In this document: positions 2,509 to 20,718 of the stretch, in pieces
Position numbering within the stretch: the stretch's first letter is position 1
How the letters are laid out: each line of letters begins with the position of its first letter
Virus record (IMG/VR): IMGVR_UViG_3300025082_000098
Location: 1-20,799 of that record
DNA: 20,799 bases
Source of the DNA: a virus
Direction: 5' to 3' (one strand)
Program-made: the position numbers and the translations under genes
Notes under the pieces: model-generated
What the model was told of the DNA's origin: nothing
Seen by the model: the letters and a program-made list of their open reading frames with translations, nothing else
Databases searched by the model: none

Positions 2509-5500
2509 TTAAGGTGATAATCCATACCCCTCTGCCACGTAATCAAATGTTCTATCTTGGGCTACAGCAGAATTATTATAAAAAGTTATTGAGAAACCAG
2601 TAGCACTTTTTGATGTGATTGTATAGTAGTCTCCCGTTGCCATATTTTGTGCCGCAATTCCCAAGCTAGGTGTTGTAAAAAATGCGTTGCTAAATGTAAT
2701 TACTTTTGTTGTTGCTCCACTTGCAATATCGTTGCCTTTTGCATTTCTGTTTTCCATAGCCAATTTAATTACTAATTGAGTTATATTACTGCTTGTTTTA
2801 TTATCATCATTGGTTAATCGCAATCTAAATTTGGCATATCTAAAGGCATAAGTAGCTGACGAAGAAATATCATTATAAACAGTTGCCGCACCCAAACTCG
2901 CTGTACTTGTAGCCATTTGTAATTTATGAAAAGCGTGAGAAGGTTCACTTCCATCAAATGGTGCTTTTGCATCATCAAAATATAAATTTCCTCTACCACT
3001 ATCAAAAAGATCATACGGATTTTGATTATCTAAAGTTAAAGTTGGTTTAACTGTTCCATCATAAGTAGCCGATAATGAGATAGAATTAATAAAATTATAA
3101 TATCCAAGACTATCTCTATTAGCTAAATAATAAGTTGGATTTGAAGTTGCATCAGTACCCCCAAGTTCAAAATCTCCACTAGGAGTATCAAAGTTTCCAA
3201 CTGTATCTTCAAAATTAGTAATAGTATCTAAAGATAAAACAGTATCTCCACTCACATCTTCTTTTACACATAAAGGATAAGTCGCATCCATTTGTGCTGG
3301 GCTTAAAAATAAATTTGGATTTTCTGTTGTTGTAGAAATATCAGTATAAGCAAAAATATTTGAAACATTGGTGTAAATAATAGATTCCGAAATTGATTCA
3401 TTGCCAGTTTTGTCGATTGCTTTTATGAGGAAAGCACCAACTCTACTATTCACTAAAGCATTATCTGATTTTCTTCTTGTTACCCTGATTAAATTCGTGC
3501 TGTTGTTCCATAATGCACCACTCGTTACATTTTGGTATCTTATTTCATAGTAAGCAATATCTAAATCTGTTGAGGCACTAGGTGGTGTCCAAGTCAATCT
3601 CATTTGATTACTTCCGTGCATTTCTATTGCAAAATCATCAACATTACTTGGTGGATCACTTCCACCTACTATTGTTCTGTTTTCAGAAGTATAAGTTGAG
3701 GAAACTCCCAATGAGGAAATCGCCTTACATCTTACATTATAAATTTTTCCATCAACCACATTTAACATTTCATGGTTTAATTGAGTTCCTTTTGCTATAA
3801 TTTTATAATCTGATTCTGTGCTTTGTTTAGCTTCCACTTGATAATATTGAACAAATTTATCTGTACTTGCACCCACTAAAATATTAAGTCGAGTCAGCAC
3901 AACACCATCTGAATATTCTATTAGTTCATCACTCAATGTTAAACTTGCTGGTGCAGTTACAGAATAAGGATCTGGTAATGTAGTATCAGGTATTGTAACG
4001 GGTGCATTTTTATCATTAAATGTGTAAAAATTATCTTGGTGTTCAAATAATTGCACATTTACAGTTAAATCTTCATTGATCTCTAACCCCAAAACACGAA
4101 AAGGTTTAGCACTAAAACCACCACTTGCGTAGGTTAATGCAACTATGTCACCAATTTCTAATTCTAAAAATTCTGATGTTAAAGTTAATTGTATTTGTAA
4201 TTGGTTTCTTGATCTTCTTAAAATAATTTCGCAAAGTGCTTCCGCATTATAAGCATTAGTAACATTTGGAAATTGAAAATTACCCTCTAACAAAGTATTA
4301 TTATCTACAGACAACATTGTAGCGTGTTGAAAATCACTAGCAACTCCACTGTCATCAATAGGCGGAAAACATACAGTATCATTTTGCCATTTCTTATATG
4401 GGTTACAATAGGTTCCGATAACACGATTGTATTTAGTATTTTTTCTTTCTCCTACAACTTTTGCACCACCTACAACATGATCTTTGGTAATTGTTTTAAC
4501 AGATGAACCTGTTCCCTCAATTTTTAATTTATAAACTCCATTGTTATAAGTAAATAAAGACCTCATAGGATTGAGAAGTTTTTTTACATTTTCAATAACC
4601 TTTTGACTTGTATCTATAACAGCATTGGATTCAAATTTTATAATAGCTGGAACTGTATCTGTAATTTGTGTTCCATTATCAAATTTTGCAGATAAAGTTG
4701 TACTATAAGTTCCGCCAGTTATTTTCCATGAAAAAGTTAAAACAGAATCCGTTGGTGCGTTTCCATATAAAATAATAATTGGATAGACCTGACCACTTGT
4801 TAAACTTTTTGTACCCTCTCTGGTTTGTTCTCCATGCCACCCACTATTATTTACAATTAATTTGCTATCTTTATTTCCTTGTATTTCTATAAATAAATTA
4901 TTTACTGTTTGACCAGCATCACCAACATAAACTCTTGAACTATCATCTGAAGTTGTTTTAAAATAATATGTATTTGTACTTGCTGGTGTAAAATAACCAA
5001 AATATCTCCTAGAGTTATTGGGATCTGTTGATACTGAACTTATACTTGTAACTGTGCCTGTTGATGATGGATATTTATTTATAAAATAATTTGGATCATC
5101 ATTATAATAACCTGAATAAAATTCATGGATTAATCCAGGTACAGAAGATGTGCTAACAGTTCTTGGAACTATTAATGTATCGGCATCATTAGCGGCAGTT
5201 TGAAAAGAAGTAAAATTTGTTTCAAAGGCACTATTTGGTAATCCTTTTCCATATCTGGAATTTCTTAAATAATCCAGTAATACTAAAGCAGAGTTCGGTG
5301 TGTATCTTGTTGTTGTATCTCTTGGGTCATAAACTTTTTTTCCTTTTAATGTAACTTTAATTTGTGGAATTGAACTGAAAATATCTTGATGCCATTTAAA
5401 CCTAAAAGATAAATAACAGATTCCTGACAATTTATGTGCCGCAGTCCAATTAGATGATGCTGATAAAATTGAAGATACACTTTGTCCATCTGTTCCATAA

Positions 5501-5895
5501 AATGCTTGTATCTGAATATGTGAAGCACTATCTTTATAAAAATTTGCATCACCACCAGAAACTTCTCTTACTGTTCCATCTGTTAAATCTCCATCAAAAA
5601 AAACTAATTTATCATCTACAAATATTTGTTGGATTTCTTCAATCTCTCCTTCGCAAACAATACCCGCCATGTATAAATATTCATTATCAGTTCCAGAACT
5701 TTCTAAAAAAACTCGTGTAATTCCAGTTTGTCTTCTACCATAAACTATCGGGATTTGTGCATTGTTGGATTGTTTATTAATTAAAACACCTTTGGCTTCT
5801 TCTGGTATATCAAAATCAGGGGTATCAGCTACTGGAATTAACCAACCAATAAAACCTGAAACAACCTCAACTATCGAATCAATTATACCACCCAT
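2509..5895 (-). CDS. J-like: Tail tip hub / host-specificity protein (lambda gpJ-like)
   Basis: At 1128 residues this is the largest gene, last of the tail-assembly block and just before the fibre, as gpJ is in lambda. The N-terminus (MGGIIDSIVEVVSGFIGWLIP) is hydrophobic and is followed by the hub start typical of this family (KGVLINKQSNNAQIPIVYG at about 36-52). PYD/PRD and LLDYLRNSRYGKGLP (about 206-220) also match gpJ-type hubs. A PA14/GLEYA-like domain sits at about 250-395. Hub beta domains resume (about 415-660), including EIGDIVALTY, and two fibronectin III-like repeats follow (about 675-880). The C-terminal 250 residues are beta-rich and probably surface exposed. The start has a strong AAGGAG about nine bases upstream and overlaps the previous stop (TAATG). 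The protein should close the tail tip, contact the receptor and undergo the change that triggers DNA release. Confidence 0.9.
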   Translation of the reverse strand: MGGIIDSIVEVVSGFIGWLIPVADTPDFDIPEEAKGVLINKQSNNAQIPIVYGRRQTGITRVFLESSGTDNEYLYMAGIVCEGEIEEIQQIFVDDKLVFFDGDLTDGTVREVSGGDANFYKDSASHIQIQAFYGTDGQSVSSILSASSNWTAAHKLSGICYLSFRFKWHQDIFSSIPQIKVTLKGKKVYDPRDTTTRYTPNSALVLLDYLRNSRYGKGLPNSAFETNFTSFQTAANDADTLIVPRTVSTSSVPGLIHEFYSGYYNDDPNYFINKYPSSTGTVTSISSVSTDPNNSRRYFGYFTPASTNTYYFKTTSDDSSRVYVGDAGQTVNNLFIEIQGNKDSKLIVNNSGWHGEQTREGTKSLTSGQVYPIIILYGNAPTDSVLTFSWKITGGTYSTTLSAKFDNGTQITDTVPAIIKFESNAVIDTSQKVIENVKKLLNPMRSLFTYNNGVYKLKIEGTGSSVKTITKDHVVGGAKVVGERKNTKYNRVIGTYCNPYKKWQNDTVCFPPIDDSGVASDFQHATMLSVDNNTLLEGNFQFPNVTNAYNAEALCEIILRRSRNQLQIQLTLTSEFLELEIGDIVALTYASGGFSAKPFRVLGLEINEDLTVNVQLFEHQDNFYTFNDKNAPVTIPDTTLPDPYSVTAPASLTLSDELIEYSDGVVLTRLNILVGASTDKFVQYYQVEAKQSTESDYKIIAKGTQLNHEMLNVVDGKIYNVRCKAISSLGVSSTYTSENRTIVGGSDPPSNVDDFAIEMHGSNQMRLTWTPPSASTDLDIAYYEIRYQNVTSGALWNNSTNLIRVTRRKSDNALVNSRVGAFLIKAIDKTGNESISESIIYTNVSNIFAYTDISTTTENPNLFLSPAQMDATYPLCVKEDVSGDTVLSLDTITNFEDTVGNFDTPSGDFELGGTDATSNPTYYLANRDSLGYYNFINSISLSATYDGTVKPTLTLDNQNPYDLFDSGRGNLYFDDAKAPFDGSEPSHAFHKLQMATSTASLGAATVYNDISSSATYAFRYAKFRLRLTNDDNKTSSNITQLVIKLAMENRNAKGNDIASGATTKVITFSNAFFTTPSLGIAAQNMATGDYYTITSKSATGFSITFYNNSAVAQDRTFDYVAEGYGLSP
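4711..5148 (-). other. PA14/GLEYA-like domain inside the tail hub gene
   Basis: Residues about 250-395 of the hub protein read as a PA14-type beta-barrel: PGLIHEFYSG, then a segment ending RRYFGYFTP, then TYYFKTTSDDSSRVYVG, and finally YPIIILYGN before a strand ending FSWKITGG. The order 'G.l..eyY', 'rr..G.f.P...tY.F.t.sDDssrv.vg', 'g..YPi.i.ygn' is the familiar PA14/GLEYA pattern. The Asp-Asp pair (317-318) is at the place where calcium and sugar are held in the family. Sequence before (RNSRYGKGLP) and after (VIDTSQKVIENVKKLL) looks like continuous hub, so the domain appears inserted. Confidence 0.7.
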
Positions 5896-6850: not shown

Positions 6851-7450
6851 TTAAAGAGCTTCCTCTAGGTTTATTTCATATTCATATAAATTATTAATTG
6901 TAATAGAATATTCCTGAATATCATTAGTAAGTCTAACAGTAAAAGCAACATCATCATAAATTAACGCCACATCATTTGCTACATCTTCTCTTAATGGTGG
7001 TTCAAAAGTTAATGTTCCATCGCCACTTCCATCTGAATCTAAATCTGCTACCGCCATATAAACTTTGTCTGCACCGAATCTAAAGTAATCCCCAGCTTTT
7101 AATATTCCACTTGTGCTAACTGTCATTCCATCTATGGCGCAAGTTGTAACACCAGCAGAAATAGCACCATCAACACTTATTGTTCCTGTAGCTGAACCTT
7201 GTGCATCTGAAACAATAGGTGGAGTAACTGTAAAAGTATTTAATCTTGATCTTTGTTTCATTAAAAATGCTTTAATTGGTGCGAAAGTTGCTCTGTTCAT
7301 TGGTGCATAAACTAAAGTTATAGCAAATTTTTGACCATCTATTTGCCTGGTTTGAACTCTACCTGATGTCGTTGTTGATATTAAAGTATTTTGCCTTGAA
7401 CTTATTTTTGCATTTTTTGCAGTTGGTGTTGTTGGAAATTGTCCACTCAT
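6851..7450 (-). CDS. Distal tail-like (Dit / gpM-position) minor tail protein
   Basis: The 199-residue protein directly follows the tape measure with a 4-base ATGA overlap, the position of lambda gpM or the Dit protein of other siphoviruses. It starts SGQFPTTPTAKNAKISS and continues with QIDGQKFAITLVYAPMNRATFAPIKAFLMKQRSRLNTFTV, a beta-helix-beta arrangement common to distal tail ring proteins ('w.l.l.y..l.r....i.aFl...rgr...F'). The middle (about 90-150) holds an extra beta domain including LKAGDYFRFGADKVYMA, similar to inserts in other distal tail proteins, and the end (AFTVRLTNDIQEY ... NNLYEYEI) closes the first fold. It should form a hexameric ring joining tail tube to tip. Assignment rests on position and fold-like pattern, not on a close match. 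Confidence 0.68.
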   Translation of the reverse strand: MSGQFPTTPTAKNAKISSRQNTLISTTTSGRVQTRQIDGQKFAITLVYAPMNRATFAPIKAFLMKQRSRLNTFTVTPPIVSDAQGSATGTISVDGAISAGVTTCAIDGMTVSTSGILKAGDYFRFGADKVYMAVADLDSDGSGDGTLTFEPPLREDVANDVALIYDDVAFTVRLTNDIQEYSITINNLYEYEINLEEAL

Positions 7451-9255
7451 ACTAAAGCCTCTCTTCCTTTTTCATTTAAAGCAGAATTAATTACATTAAC
7501 AATAGTTGCTCTGTTATCAATTAATAATTTTTTAACTCCTGTTACATCTGTTGCATTAATAGTAAAGGCAATATTTATATTTTTACCTCCAAGATGAGGA
7601 CTAATAAACCCACTACTATTAGGAATCATGACCTCTGGTCCTCCCTCACCAACCATGTATGGTTTATTTTCTGATACTATTCCACCTTGTCTTCTTCCAG
7701 TATATTTCTGCGCTCTTATTTGTCCTACTTGTGCCATACCAAAAGCTAGTGCCGCGGCTACTGCAAGATAACCCATAGGTGTAGCACCATAAGCCGCAAA
7801 CGCTTTCATAGCTGCCGATCTTGTATTAATAATAGCTTCTGCTATTTTATATGCTTTTAATGCTTTAAATGCTTTCTTACTATGTCCTGATAATATAGTT
7901 AGTGTTCCCTCTACATCACTCCTAAGATTTGCATTAGCTTTTTCTCTAATCTCTTTTTCTTTTTTAACTCTTTCTTCATACGCATCTATTCGCGCCCATT
8001 CTAATTTTTGCATGTGTGCAAAATGTAATTGCTGTTGTCGTTTTTCTTCTTCTAAACGCTCAAGATTTTTTAGTCTAGCTTTTTCGGCCTCTGAACTTAA
8101 ATTTGCTATAAGTTGTTTTTTTGTTTCTGCAGCTTTTTGTGCAGATAATACACTTGCGGCATTTGTCTTTTCTTCATTGTCTTGACTCTCGACTCCCAAT
8201 CCATTTATTACTTTATGAAAATCAATTATTTCCTGTTTCATTATGGCAGTATTATCTACAACGGAATCTTTAACTTTTAACATTTGTAATTTCATTATTC
8301 CTGGCCAACCAGCGGGTCCTGAAGCAAATAATAAGGCCTGTGTTTTAAATATTTTCCAATTAGTTGCTAAACCATCAAATGAATCTCCTAGACCTATAAT
8401 TGTATATTTAAGTCTAATAAATGCTTCACCAACTTGTCCTACAATATTCAGAAATTTCTCTGCTAACCATTTTCCAAATCCTTCCATATCTGTATGTGTT
8501 TCTTTTACATAGTGTAATAAAGTATCTCTTAATTTATTTGAAGCAGTTTCAATCGCTGGTGCTAATCCAACAGTAAATTGATTTGCAAGTCCTGTAAATA
8601 ATAATTTAGTTCTAGCGACTGAATCGTTTGCATCTTCAATAGCCCTAACCATTTTTGTTGTTAAAACTAAACCTAAAGTCTTCGCTTCCTTACTCATTTC
8701 TACCATGCCAGCAGTACCAGATTCAATAGCAGTTAAGAGTTCTATATTTCGACCACCAAATAATTTATAAGCAATAGCAGTTTTATCTCCTTCTTTTTTT
8801 ACTTTTTGCAAAGCGTCAGCAACCAACTCGAATTGAGCCATTAAATCTCCATTCGTTGCTCTTAAATCATCTTGAGTAATTTTTAATTGTTTAAATGCGT
8901 CTTGTGCAATACCAGTTCCTTTAACAAGCCAATCGTTAATTCCAACTGCCATTGTTCTTGCACCTTTAGCAAATGCTTCTAAAGATGTTCCACCTAGTTC
9001 TGCCGCTAATCTAAATGCTGATAAATTTTCTGTTGAAATAAATAATTGACGTGATAGCTTTCCAATCTTGTCTACACTAATTAATGAATTTCTAATTAAT
9101 AAACCAAGACCAGCTACACCAGCGACTGCCGCTAGTCCAGTCTTCATATTAAAAATAGCTTTACTTACGCCTTTTAGTCCACGCTTTAATGAACTAAATG
9201 CTCGTTTAGTTTTATCCTTTGCATTAATATCAAATTGTAATTTATTTCTTGCCAT
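7447..9255 (-). CDS. H-like: Tail tape measure protein
   Basis: The 602-residue, helix-rich, alanine-rich protein begins MARNKLQFDINAKDKTKRAF, which fits the tape-measure start, and has a hydrophobic segment at about 38-56 (GLAAVAGVAGLGLL). A long coiled coil runs at about 375-445. A second hydrophobic stretch lies at about 490-515 (YLAVAAALAFGMAQVG). The C-terminal GGIVSENKPYMVGEGGPEVMIP (about 524-545) is a hallmark of tape-measure tails. Tape measures set tail length at roughly 1.5 angstrom per residue, which would give a tail near 90 nm, and they help DNA enter the cell. It starts in a TAATG overlap with the T-frame of the chaperone gene, so it should be made after ribosomes that have shifted frame. 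The long length, order and motifs make the call secure. Confidence 0.93.
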   Translation of the reverse strand: MARNKLQFDINAKDKTKRAFSSLKRGLKGVSKAIFNMKTGLAAVAGVAGLGLLIRNSLISVDKIGKLSRQLFISTENLSAFRLAAELGGTSLEAFAKGARTMAVGINDWLVKGTGIAQDAFKQLKITQDDLRATNGDLMAQFELVADALQKVKKEGDKTAIAYKLFGGRNIELLTAIESGTAGMVEMSKEAKTLGLVLTTKMVRAIEDANDSVARTKLLFTGLANQFTVGLAPAIETASNKLRDTLLHYVKETHTDMEGFGKWLAEKFLNIVGQVGEAFIRLKYTIIGLGDSFDGLATNWKIFKTQALLFASGPAGWPGIMKLQMLKVKDSVVDNTAIMKQEIIDFHKVINGLGVESQDNEEKTNAASVLSAQKAAETKKQLIANLSSEAEKARLKNLERLEEEKRQQQLHFAHMQKLEWARIDAYEERVKKEKEIREKANANLRSDVEGTLTILSGHSKKAFKALKAYKIAEAIINTRSAAMKAFAAYGATPMGYLAVAAALAFGMAQVGQIRAQKYTGRRQGGIVSENKPYMVGEGGPEVMIPNSSGFISPHLGGKNINIAFTINATDVTGVKKLLIDNRATIVNVINSALNEKGREALV

Positions 9256-9407
9256 TATCTTTTTAATTTAGCGTCTTTGTTTAGTTTATTATAAAACGCA
9301 CACCATAAATTAAACTCGTCAACAGTCATATCCATAATGTCGGATAGTTTCAAGTTGAGGTCTTTAGCAAGATGGAGAATGTTTAGAAGTTCGTTATCAG
9401 TCCTGAT
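9255..9407 (-). CDS. T-like: Tail assembly chaperone, T-frame extension reached by frameshift
   Basis: This 50-codon frame has no start codon of its own at its beginning; it opens from the A10 run in the 3' end of the preceding chaperone gene and ends in a TAATG overlap with the tape measure. It reads IRTDNELLNILHLAKDLNL, then a segment with LSDIMDMTVDEFNLWCAFYN, and ends KLKR. 'L...A...n....im.Mt..Ef.lW..fy' is the pattern of gpT-type C-terminal chaperone domains, which bind the tape measure. Relative to the first frame it is +1 (equal to -2), giving a fusion of 163 or 164 residues with the slip placed within the run. In lambda and most relatives the shift is -1. A Met at codon 25 of this frame could in theory start a very short protein but has no ribosome site. 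Confidence 0.8.
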   Translation of the reverse strand: MRTDNELLNILHLAKDLNLKLSDIMDMTVDEFNLWCAFYNKLNKDAKLKR

Positions 9408-9747
9408 TTTTTTTTTCCCAGTCTTCAACTGGGATTACGTCTAATATCTGATTGGCAACTCGTGCCACTATATCAGGATCAGTAGTGTGCATTAAGGAAT
9501 GTTTATCGTCTAGCTTAAATATTTTATTGCCTTTGTCATCTTCAGCTTTAAAAATTAAAACATTAGCGAATAAAGTAACATCGTCAGGTTTTATATCACG
9601 ACTTAATCTTCTTTTTTCTGCTAAAGTTAAAGGTTTAGCATAGATAACAAATGGTTTTCCATCTTTGGTTTCCCATTCTGGTATCTCAATTCGTTTTATA
9701 TCTTTTGATTTAAAATGTTCTTTAGCAGACTCAAGTATATCGCTCAT
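9397..9747 (-). CDS. G-like: Tail assembly chaperone, G-type
   Basis: The 116-residue protein sits between the tail tube and tape measure genes, the fixed place of gpG-type chaperones. It begins MSDILESAKEHFKSKDIKRIEIPEW and has a beta-rich middle (GKPFVIYAKPLTLAEKRRLSR), followed by a helical C-terminal part ending in WEKKNQD. 'ipew...dGk.f.iyakplTlaek.rl' resembles tail chaperones and related tail proteins from other siphoviruses of alphaproteobacteria. The final codons GAA AAA AAA AAT lie in the A10 run where the frame change to the T part occurs. The role in lambda is to coat the tape measure during tail assembly, with a fixed ratio of G to GT protein. I see no clear Shine-Dalgarno sequence upstream. 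Confidence 0.85.
   Translation of the reverse strand: MSDILESAKEHFKSKDIKRIEIPEWETKDGKPFVIYAKPLTLAEKRRLSRDIKPDDVTLFANVLIFKAEDDKGNKIFKLDDKHSLMHTTDPDIVARVANQILDVIPVEDWEKKNQD
9405..9419 (-). other. Frameshift site: G3A10 homopolymer
   Basis: Read on the minus strand, GGG followed by ten A (positions 9416 down to 9407) and then TC. The first frame reads TGG GAA AAA AAA AAT CAG GAC TGA. The T frame resumes as ATC AGG ACT. The -1 frame would end after only a handful of codons (ends TTC TAA), so only a +1 or -2 change gives the long product. A run of ten A can shift by ribosome slippage or by the polymerase adding or dropping A. Confidence 0.75.
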
Positions 9748-9788: not shown

Positions 9789-10178
9789 TTAAACAGTTCC
9801 TCTAGTTAGCGCACCAGTTAAAGTAGCTGAAAAAGTTGCTTCTATCATACCATCAGTTGGAACTGAAACAGAATTAGCAGTAATTAACCATGTACCGCCA
9901 AAATAATAATCTGCTGAATCAGCACCCTCTGGATATAAATAAAGAGTCACTTGTTCACCTTCCGCTATTGCTATCTGTCCATTAGTGTCTGTTTCGTCCC
10001 AGAAACACTCAACAGATGCAGTTGCACCTTTTTTGCCAACTTGGAAAGTTTTGGAAGTATCAGTTAATGTAGTATCTTCTAATAATTCTGCTGTTGTGTC
10101 TAAAGTAAAACTTCTCACTTCTGCAATAATATTAGAACCACATTTTACTAAACCTGAACTTCCTGTATGTGTTGCCAT
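9789..10178 (-). CDS. V-like: Major tail tube protein
   Basis: The 129-residue protein begins MATHTGSSGLVKCGSNIIAEVRSFTLDTTAELLEDTTL and continues KGATASVECFWDETD, GEQVTLYLYPEG and YYFGGTWLITANSVSVP, ending IEATFSATLTGALTRGTV. Residues 'gs.g.vk.g...iaev.sftld..ae..edt.l.d' and the closing 'eatfs...tGal' are the pattern of tube-forming subunits of siphoviruses. The protein polymerises as stacked hexamer rings around the tape measure. The gene has one of the better ribosome sites here (AGAGGAA about eight bases before the ATG), as expected for a highly expressed structural protein, and overlaps the previous stop by TAATG. There is no extra Ig-like domain at the C-terminus, unlike lambda gpV. 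Confidence 0.88.
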   Translation of the reverse strand: MATHTGSSGLVKCGSNIIAEVRSFTLDTTAELLEDTTLTDTSKTFQVGKKGATASVECFWDETDTNGQIAIAEGEQVTLYLYPEGADSADYYFGGTWLITANSVSVPTDGMIEATFSATLTGALTRGTV

Positions 10179-18562: not shown

Positions 18563-19031
18563 GTTTTTTTAATTTATTTTCATACATTGTTACTTTAGCC
18601 ATCATAAGTTTATCAGCTTCTTTTTTAGTTTCTTCTACTGCTTTTATTTTTTCTAATTTTAATTTTTTTATTTGTTCATCTTTTTTATCATTTTGTAGAG
18701 TAGTAATAGTTATTTCGTCCCTTAATATATCAATATCTTTTAATAGCTTTTCTTCTTGTTCGGCAATTCTATCTTTTAAAGTTGACATATAACAAATATC
18801 ATCAATTTTTTCTTCTATTGATTCTTCTATCCATTCAGGAATAGATTTAGAATTATCTGCCATTGTTTTTTTAAACTTTTCCATTCCTTGTTGGTGTCTA
18901 GCAAATATTCTATTAATAACATCATTAATTACTGGATCAGAAGTTTTAACTTTATATTTTTTCATTAAATCATAATTTTGTTTTGTTAGTTCTTCATTGT
19001 CTTTTTTTAACGCATTAATATAGTTGCTCAT
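18546..19031 (-). CDS. Coiled-coil protein, 161 aa
   Basis: The 161-residue protein is almost wholly helical and highly charged. An N-terminal coiled coil (about 5-25, NALKKDNEELTKQNYDLMKK) is followed by a linker with DPVINDVINRIFARHQQG (about 32-50), then a long coiled coil at about 85-150 with heptad-spaced Leu and Ile, and a basic end (KLKKHGKKT). The start overlaps the methyltransferase stop (ATGA). Proteins of this kind upstream of terminase are usually unannotated; a scaffold-like, spacer or DNA-binding role is possible. No known family is recognised. The C-terminal 17 bases overlap the microprotein gene. Confidence 0.75.
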   Translation of the reverse strand: MSNYINALKKDNEELTKQNYDLMKKYKVKTSDPVINDVINRIFARHQQGMEKFKKTMADNSKSIPEWIEESIEEKIDDICYMSTLKDRIAEQEEKLLKDIDILRDEITITTLQNDKKDEQIKKLKLEKIKAVEETKKEADKLMMAKVTMYENKLKKHGKKT

Positions 19032-20209
19032 ATTTTTTTACTACTCTTGCCTGTGTAATCTTCCCATCGCTTAATTATTACATCGCAGTATTTTGGGTCT
19101 AACTCCATCATATAACATTTTCTATCTAATTTTTCACAAGCTATTAGTGTTGAGCCAGAGCCACCATATAAATCTATAATATTTTTTTTATCCTTTAAAG
19201 AAAAGTAATTAAAAAACCATAATAATAAAGCTATTGGTTTTTGTGTTGGATGAACTCTTTTTTTAGTATCTTCTTTAGATAGACCAAATATTCCAGCCCA
19301 TTTTACTCTTGCCATTATTCTTTTGTGTTTTGCTTTTGACCAACATAATTCAAAAGTACTTCCATACATCTTATCTGCTGATTCCTCTAATCTTTTATCC
19401 CATACTATCCAAGAACCATTATTTTTATTATTTATATATTCTGAATAATAATCTGCACCCCATAAAAAAATTTCTTCACAATATTTAAAATTATTTAATA
19501 CTGAAGTTATAAATTTAGGTTTAAAATCTATATTATCTCCTATTACTTTATTATATTTGTTTCCATCTCCGAATATACCTTTCATCGAACTAAAATCGGT
19601 ATTTAAAAACATCCCATAAGGTGGATCAGTAAAAACCATATCAGCTTTAGCACCATCCATTAGTTTATTTACATCTTCCTCTTTAGTAGAATCCCCACAT
19701 AACAATCTATGCTTACCCAGATGCCATATATCTCCTAATTTAGTTATAGGTTTTTCAGGAGTATCAGGAACAGCATCATCATCAGTAAATCCTTTAACTT
19801 CATCAATAATTAAATCGTCCAATTCATTCTTTTCAAATCCTAAACTATCTAAATTAAAATCCAGTTTAGAAATATCTTTGAACTCTAATTTTAATTTTGA
19901 AAAATCCCATTCACTATCCTGATTAATTCTATTATCAGCTATCCTGTACGCTTTAGCTTTAACTGGAGAAAGATCAGCAATAATAACTGGCACTTTATCT
20001 AAACCAAGTTCTTTACCAGCTTCATATCTGCTGTGGCCCACTATAATAATATTTTTTTTATCAACTACAATAGGTTGTTGGAAACCAAACTCTTTAATCG
20101 AATTAACAACCTTTGTAATGTTTTGTTTTTTTCTTGGATTGTTAGAATAAGGTTTAATATCTTTTAAAGGAATATTTTTAATAATAGGATTATGATTTAA
20201 GTTGCTCAT
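19028..20209 (-). CDS. ParB-like domain fused to DNA N6-adenine / N4-cytosine methyltransferase
   Basis: With the ATG at 20209 (TAATG overlap with the previous stop) the protein has 393 residues; a TTG six bases further upstream is a weaker start. Numbering from that TTG, residues 10-135 are a ParB/Srx-like domain: PYSNNPRKKQN, SIKEFGFQQPIVVD, IIIVGHSRYEAGKELG and YRIADNRIN. The methyltransferase follows: LLCGDST, TDPPYGM (motif IV, 197-200), an adenine-type DPPY, then HPTQKP (322-327) and IDLYGGSGST (motif I, 348-356). Motif IV before motif I is the beta-type order, as in CcrM-like enzymes. It should transfer a methyl group from S-adenosylmethionine to adenine (or cytosine N4) in phage DNA and could protect it from host restriction. 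No restriction enzyme lies nearby. Confidence 0.9.
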   Translation of the reverse strand: MSNLNHNPIIKNIPLKDIKPYSNNPRKKQNITKVVNSIKEFGFQQPIVVDKKNIIIVGHSRYEAGKELGLDKVPVIIADLSPVKAKAYRIADNRINQDSEWDFSKLKLEFKDISKLDFNLDSLGFEKNELDDLIIDEVKGFTDDDAVPDTPEKPITKLGDIWHLGKHRLLCGDSTKEEDVNKLMDGAKADMVFTDPPYGMFLNTDFSSMKGIFGDGNKYNKVIGDNIDFKPKFITSVLNNFKYCEEIFLWGADYYSEYINNKNNGSWIVWDKRLEESADKMYGSTFELCWSKAKHKRIMARVKWAGIFGLSKEDTKKRVHPTQKPIALLLWFFNYFSLKDKKNIIDLYGGSGSTLIACEKLDRKCYMMELDPKYCDVIIKRWEDYTGKSSKKI

Positions 20210-20718
20210 TACCAACTATGCCCACATTCAGGACATTCATTTTTTTTAGGTTTAGCTTCTTCAGGATCAGTTAAAGTTCCAGCTAATACTCGTGCAATTT
20301 CTTCTTCATTAAAACCAGTCTGTTTCCACCATTCCGAATCTAATTTACTATTCAATTCCAGTTCTGCTAATTCATTTCTCAACAGAACTTTATCCCATTC
20401 AGATTCATCAGCAGAACGATTGTCTGCAATACGATACTTCCTAACATCTAAATCGTTTAAGTGATTCAATTCGATATAAGGAACATTTGTCATTCCTAAT
20501 CGTTTTGCCGCCTCGTATCTTGTATGCCCACTCACGATAAGTTTGTCCATCATATTATTAATAGTGATAGGCACATTAAAACCAAATGACTTAATAGATT
20601 CCATAACAAGCGGAACACCTTTTTGAATCTTACGTGGATTCTTTGCATAAGGAATTAAATGTTCAATAGGAATTGTTTTAAGATTTGGATTAATTCTTAT
20701 TTCTATCTTCTTTGGCAT
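20209..20718 (-). CDS. Stand-alone ParB-like domain protein
   Basis: The 169-residue protein carries the same domain as the next gene: IPYAKNPRKIQKG (about 22-34), SIKSFGFNVPITI (41-53), KLIVSGHTRYEAAKRLG (59-75) and YRIADNRSADESEWD (95-109), with a C-terminal GFNEEEIARVL helix. 'GHTRYEA' matches the nucleotide-binding box of ParB-type domains (G-x-R-R in bacterial ParB). It lacks the HTH and dimer domains of plasmid ParB. The last residues, CPECGHSW, form half a zinc-finger knuckle (CPECGH). The two genes look like a tandem duplication with the MTase-fused copy next door. It may act with that enzyme in DNA binding, or have CTP/ATP-dependent sliding activity. The ATG has a modest AAGAGA upstream, about six bases away. 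Confidence 0.85.
   Translation of the reverse strand: MPKKIEIRINPNLKTIPIEHLIPYAKNPRKIQKGVPLVMESIKSFGFNVPITINNMMDKLIVSGHTRYEAAKRLGMTNVPYIELNHLNDLDVRKYRIADNRSADESEWDKVLLRNELAELELNSKLDSEWWKQTGFNEEEIARVLAGTLTDPEEAKPKKNECPECGHSW

Follow-up and report, generated by a model that had tools for sequence, protein, structure and literature searches.

We describe a tail assembly chaperone locus of a marine phage family in which the choice between a short and a C-terminally extended protein is probably made by RNA polymerase. In the window, as we call the whole 20,799-nucleotide stretch of DNA analysed, the chaperone gene G runs into ten consecutive A residues and overlaps a T frame lying in +1 (equivalent to -2) relation to it, and an RNA hairpin directly abuts the A run on its 5′ side. 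Comparison of related junctions argues for hairpin-assisted loss of one A by the polymerase, a probable route by which normal translation would yield a 163-residue GT fusion. With somewhat better than even confidence, hairpin-driven slippage that deletes one A sets the G:GT ratio, and in this lineage it replaced ribosomal -1 slippage, in parallel to IS1447 among the IS3 elements. The features concerned are as follows.

7447–9255, minus strand: tail tape measure protein (PHROG tape measure, E 5e-48), whose start codon overlaps the T stop (TAATG).
9255–9407, minus strand: T frame, the C-terminal part of GT; 50 codons plus stop, +1/-2 relative to G, with coding-type substitutions and no conserved start before codon 18-19.
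9255–9747, minus strand: predicted GT fusion of 163 aa (one A lost) or 164 aa (-2), lengths from frame arithmetic.
9397–9747, minus strand: G, the tail assembly chaperone in the zero frame; open reading frame of 116 aa.
9407–9416, minus strand: A10 run (T10 on the plus strand), the candidate slippage site.
9417–9433, minus strand: stem-loop CCCAGT-TGAAG-ACTGGG directly 5′ of the A run, supported by folding, covariation and synonymous resampling.
9789–10178, minus strand: major tail protein (PHROG major tail protein, E 1.1e-13), the upstream neighbour in canonical tail gene order.

The G product was matched to the PHROG tail assembly chaperones by profile search (E 1.7e-6 and 2.3e-4) and is homologous to the annotated chaperones of HTVC026P, phi3LM21 and RcCronus by tblastn; a Pfam search of G and T gave no match. 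The pair lies between the major tail protein and the tape measure, with T overlapping G in another frame, which is the lambda-type layout. On the minus strand, G ends in TGG GAA AAA AAA AAT CAG GAC TGA. T encodes IRTDNELL...DAKLKR and stops at 9255 inside the TAATG that contains the tape measure ATG, and the 50-codon frame from the A run to this overlap was correctly recognized in the initial annotation. That annotation started T at an ATC immediately after the run; the codon count holds, but that ATC takes its A from the run, as the last of the ten. The T frame of the window is already open before the run begins and stays open across it, and the -1 frame from G terminates early, as had been noted, after ...KKSGLITNF. 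The computed products are 163 aa with one A lost or a ribosomal +1 shift, 164 aa with two A's gained or a -2 shift, and 121 aa with one A gained. The contig has a G+C content of 32%. The hosts of its nearest cultured relatives are Pelagibacter (by G) and Roseobacter (by terminase), and a search of the contigs of one bacterial genome set returned one remote match and identified no host. Elsewhere in the window, 2509–5895 (minus strand) encodes a large tail protein of 1128 aa with an inserted PA14/GLEYA domain and an fn3-like match. The genes at 19028–20215 and 20209–20718 (both minus strand) are adjacent and share ParB-like N-terminal sequence, the former joining a ParB_N domain to an N6/N4 DNA methylase domain.

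Relatives were gathered from viral contigs, cultured phages and one bacterial genome set. They gave 212 distinct G/T junctions, with T in -1 in 172, in +1/-2 in 39 and unplaced in 1. Most of the +1/-2 junctions (33/39) come from the 27 close rows of the window's clade (SH-aLRT 99) and from a distant subgroup around L120 and L200, which are counted together below. A tree constrained to unite the two fits no worse than the unconstrained one (p-AU 0.68), and a single origin of the +1/-2 state for both is possible. All 33 distinct clade junctions, from many metagenomes, show the same relation, with A10 in 17 and A9 in 16. The assignment of the pair to +1 or -2 at A10 rather than the usual -1 is thus borne out by the open reading frames and by every clade junction, and T is never placed where -1 slippage on an X XXY YYZ heptamer would reach it. 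When run and frame were compared across the clade, as had been proposed, no relative fused the two frames or put them at -1, and none encoded the T domain separately. The cultured relatives (HTVC026P, 202P, 111P, 112P, CRP-821, DSL-LC06, RcCronus and phi3LM21) are all -1, as are almost all other branches; the +1/-2 state therefore appears to be derived, the clade having changed the direction of the shift.

The remaining six +1/-2 junctions are L065 and the L140-144 lineage. L140, L141, L142, L143 and L144 have near-identical junctions with T in +1/-2, only A5 (TCA AAA AGC ACA TCT GAA TGA) and no hairpin, and this separate lineage looks like ribosomal +1. L065 has A9 and T in +1/-2, whereas its near-identical sisters L062 and L063 have A10 and T in -1, so that a length change of one A, by natural indel or assembly error, flips the relation. 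In phi3LM21 (L017) the -1 T frame carries no fusion annotation, and between G and the tape measure its record lists nothing but a short hypothetical protein (p41). The coding DNA of four clade genomes contains fewer runs of eight or more A's than expected (25 against 38.5 ± 3.7), and both A10 runs in that coding DNA are the chaperone junction. Conservation of AAA at the run was considered as proof that the run is needed and set aside as weak alone, the other invariant lysines in G likewise all being AAA.

The substitutions in T follow a coding pattern, and no start codon of T itself is conserved. Across the 27 close clade sequences, which are of equal length and free of indels, pairwise differences in T number 1525/747/3758 at codon positions 1/2/3. 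In T codons 9-18 alone, between the G stop and the first possible TTG start, they number 174/0/1168, and this third-position bias ahead of any possible start indicates that T is translated from upstream. A separate start for T was rejected: no conserved start precedes codon 18-19, coding constraint extends upstream of that point and a TAA lies just upstream in one subgroup. Because this TAA stops the T frame immediately ahead of the run in that A9 subgroup (TGG CTA AAA AAA AAT), the shift there must occur within the run or in the few codons between the run and the G stop.

The hairpin directly 5′ of the run had escaped the initial annotation. In the window, the stem-loop at 9417–9433 has a predicted RNA folding energy of about -8.4 kcal/mol, and a 37-nt piece in which the first A of the run also pairs reaches -11.1 kcal/mol (z -3.3). 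A stem-loop is found at this position in 33/33 distinct clade junctions, built from eight different stems with stem energies of -4.6 to -8.8. The window-type junction reads CCCAGT-TGAAG-ACTGGG + A10; the other main types are GCCAGT-TGAAG-ACTGGC + T + A9, CCCAAT-TGAAG-ATTGGG + A10 and CCCAT-CGAAGA-ATGGG + A10. In the distant subgroup the stems are GACGC-ATATA-GCGTC + G + A9, GACTCC-TAC-GGGGTC + G + A9, GACTCT-TAC-GGAGTC + G + A9 and CTCC-TACG-GGAG + CG + A9. The distance from the stem base to the last A of the run is 10 nt in 32 of the 33 junctions and 11 nt in one. Measured from the stem, the last AAA codon is read in a phase that shifts by one nucleotide between subgroups, yet the hairpin-to-run-end distance is still 10; what is conserved is thus blind to frame.

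Two stem pairs covary among the main types (C-G to G-C and G-C to A-U). By pair counts, stem pairing is 100% in the main types versus at most 50% in slid controls; the distant subgroup taken by itself gives weak counts. When the protein was recoded with random synonymous codons, a stem like that of the window came up in 18 of 3000 draws. Such a stem arose in 0-3 per 1000 draws for the distant subgroup, 0.7-6 per 1000 for the main types and 3-6% for two weaker types; for the CCCAT and CCCAAT subtypes the test reaches only mild significance. RNAalifold run on the long alignment largely missed the hairpin that the direct scan and pair counts detected, the CCCAT subgroup being paired one register off and the sequence being held fixed by the overlap.

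The hairpin accompanies the frame relation. Of the junctions with at least nine A's, 33/34 in +1/-2 and 4/53 in -1 have a stem next to the run that reaches -4.5 kcal/mol; a Fisher test overstates this contrast, these rows being related and not phylogenetically independent. Among the long-run -1 relatives, 15 of 53 have a stem better than the synonymous expectation, usually a weak one. L067, L069, L073 and L074 are -1 junctions with A9 and an abutting hairpin (stem energy -4.7 to -7.0). L016, L018 and about 40 relatives (GTA AAA AAA AAC TAA) are pelagiphage -1 sites that retain A9 although A AAA AAC would suffice; they are mostly without an SD or a strong hairpin, and insertion-type polymerase slippage is possible at such sites.

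Anti-SD pairing and downstream structure are the usual stimulators of -1 frameshifting in bacteria. Both are present at the short-run (A7) -1 sites, where upstream anti-SD pairing averages -5.0 kcal/mol and the downstream RNA is folded (z -1.65). At the window-clade junctions, we found no SD-like element upstream (mean anti-SD pairing of only -2.1 to -2.5 kcal/mol) and no downstream structure (fold z +0.9), so that neither hallmark of dnaX-type, 5′-SD-stimulated frameshifting occurs in the clade. The long-run (A9-A10) -1 relatives mostly have neither of these stimulators nor an abutting hairpin.

The clade junctions instead have the features of stem-loop-mediated transcriptional slippage, namely an adjacent 5′ stem-loop and a motif, A9-A10, about one hybrid long (7-10 nt). 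The abutting stem-loop, the fixed 10-nt spacing and the lack of ribosomal stimulators together favour polymerase slippage with one A lost. From the frames, run, hairpin, spacing, conservation and derived state, all of which are read directly in the sequence, we infer a slip in RNA synthesis, the deletion of one A and the slip frequency. G and GT would be made from one start, as lambda G and GT are, with the switch thrown during transcription. The RNA:DNA hybrid in the polymerase is 9-10 bp (PMC5009743), and after ten A's have been copied it would consist of rA:dT pairs only, with the nascent hairpin CCCAGU/ACUGGG folding exactly at its back. The hairpin would pull on this weak hybrid, and a fraction of polymerases would realign forward by one to make an A9 mRNA. 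That mRNA would be translated normally through ...DWEKK-IRTDNELL... into the 163-residue GT, a fusion predicted here by frame arithmetic, and A10 mRNA would give the 116-residue G.

Of the routes considered, only polymerase slippage requires a run of hybrid length with a nascent hairpin behind it, and this favours the polymerase route. Two experimental precedents with the same layout, together with the under-use of long A runs elsewhere in the genes of the clade genomes, likewise favour hairpin-assisted loss of an A. Against it, short poly(A) runs tried with E. coli RNA polymerase gave no slippage by deletion, and there was no activity below A8 (PMC6260861); in E. coli and Buchnera, A runs lose residues less often than they gain them (PMC5574713). 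Neither set of tests included an abutting hairpin; since the E. coli polymerase rarely deletes in poly(A) without one, the model depends on the hairpin. A search for a phage-encoded single-subunit RNA polymerase gave no match, and neither did its control. The initial annotation had headlined a ribosomal shift, with polymerase slippage as an aside: its +1/-2 assignment stands, and the evidence now tilts towards the polymerase.

The alternative that survives best, although we consider it unlikely, is a ribosomal +1 shift in which lysyl-tRNA on the last AAA moves one base forward as the hairpin refolds behind the ribosome, again giving a 163-residue GT. Such a shift has the right direction, and in SARS-CoV constructs +1 shifting is stimulated when a 5′ stem-loop lies 4 nt from the site (PMC5009743), the stem base here being 5 nt from the last AAA; the L140-144 lineage, with its A5 and no hairpin, suggests that ribosomal +1 is usable in the family. 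However, AAAA would be enough for such a shift, yet A9-A10 is kept at every clade junction. The A site holds no fixed stop or rare codon (AAT in most, ATT in the distant subgroup), and it is the distance from hairpin to last AAA that varies (5 versus 6 nt), whereas that to the run end is constant.

A Mu-like ribosomal -2 shift, which would give a 164-residue GT with an extra lysine, is less likely still. Mu uses such a shift (PMC5009743), and in A10 members the ten A's would allow two lysyl-tRNAs to re-pair two bases back; P-site -2 slippage needs only five A's. In the A9 subgroup with CTA AAA AAA AAT, however, tandem slippage would put the P-site tRNA on UAA. A 5′ hairpin should resist backward movement, SD-like and 3′ stimulators are both absent from the clade, and in a purified E. 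coli system ribosome sliding is strong at A11 and slight at A9/A10 (PMC4363877). The Mu parallel drawn in the initial annotation is one of relative frame only (+1 = -2), the Mu shift being described as ribosomal -2.

It is improbable that the main role of hairpin and run lies elsewhere, in mRNA stability, pausing or re-initiation at T, with GT arising from low-level, non-programmed slippage. Lambda needs only about 1 GT per 30 G (PMC5009743), which modest slippage on A10 might supply, but the hairpin goes with the +1/-2 relation, most -1 relatives whose runs are just as long having none, and re-initiation would skip the constrained first 18 codons of T. Homopolymers are error-prone, as the initial annotation warned, and L065, one A off its -1 sisters, shows that length changes do occur, but 33 distinct A9-A10 junctions from many metagenomes agree in frame, T is under coding constraint without a conserved start before codon 18-19 and the TAA directly upstream shuts its frame in the A9 subgroup, so that for the clade we reject, and for the window's own contig discount almost entirely, a miscalled run or other assembly artefact, or a random frame-breaking indel leaving T dead or separately started.

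Recoding at this locus most probably varies the known G/GT scheme at the level of transcription, for which insertion sequences provide the precedent. As in lambda (Xu, Hendrix and Duda; PMC5009743), a short chaperone would be accompanied by a C-terminally extended form, T overlaps the end of G and the gene order is major tail protein, G/T, tape measure; by analogy, GT would connect the tape measure to the major tail protein. Lambda and most relatives use -1 ribosomal slippage on a heptamer, whereas the window clade has +1/-2 on A9-A10 behind a stem-loop. In IS1447 orfAB of Clostridium thermocellum, an A9T run adjoins a stem-loop in the same +1 relation, and A8 was recovered in 9/52 cDNA clones with 0/30 DNA clones changed (PMC6211511). 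The family of IS1447 otherwise uses -1 ribosomal slippage on A6G/C/A (PMC6211511), likewise a switch within a family. By contrast, IS1447 encodes a transposase in a Firmicutes host, slips in both directions and has two A's inside its stem; its A8 transcripts and slippage were demonstrated experimentally, whereas slippage in the window clade is predicted. In a Roseiflexus IS630-type element, as reported (Penno et al. 2015, via PMC5009743), a stem-loop is likewise 5′-adjacent to a 10-nt motif and transcripts one nucleotide short open the +1 frame; the motif there is U5C5 rather than A10, and the gene encodes a transposase. The Pelagibacter phages HTVC026P, HTVC202P, HTVC111P and HTVC112P have homologous G (31-41% identity) and T genes and A7-A9 at the junction, but with T in -1 and no abutting hairpin; HTVC111P and 112P have A AAA AAG.

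A review describes tail-chaperone recoding as ribosomal, in -1, -2 or +1 direction (PMC5009743), and our full-text searches of open-access papers met no case of transcriptional slippage in a phage tail chaperone. Software that finds genes or predicts frameshifts from -1 or +1 ribosomal motifs only would overlook such genes or label them wrongly. The family offers a natural series, from A6-A7 with SD signals through A9-A10 without them to A9-A10 with a hairpin, in which an evolutionary switch is testable. If the proposed mechanism is correct, this virus would set the ratio of its structural proteins at RNA synthesis, within a gene family whose relatives use the ribosome.
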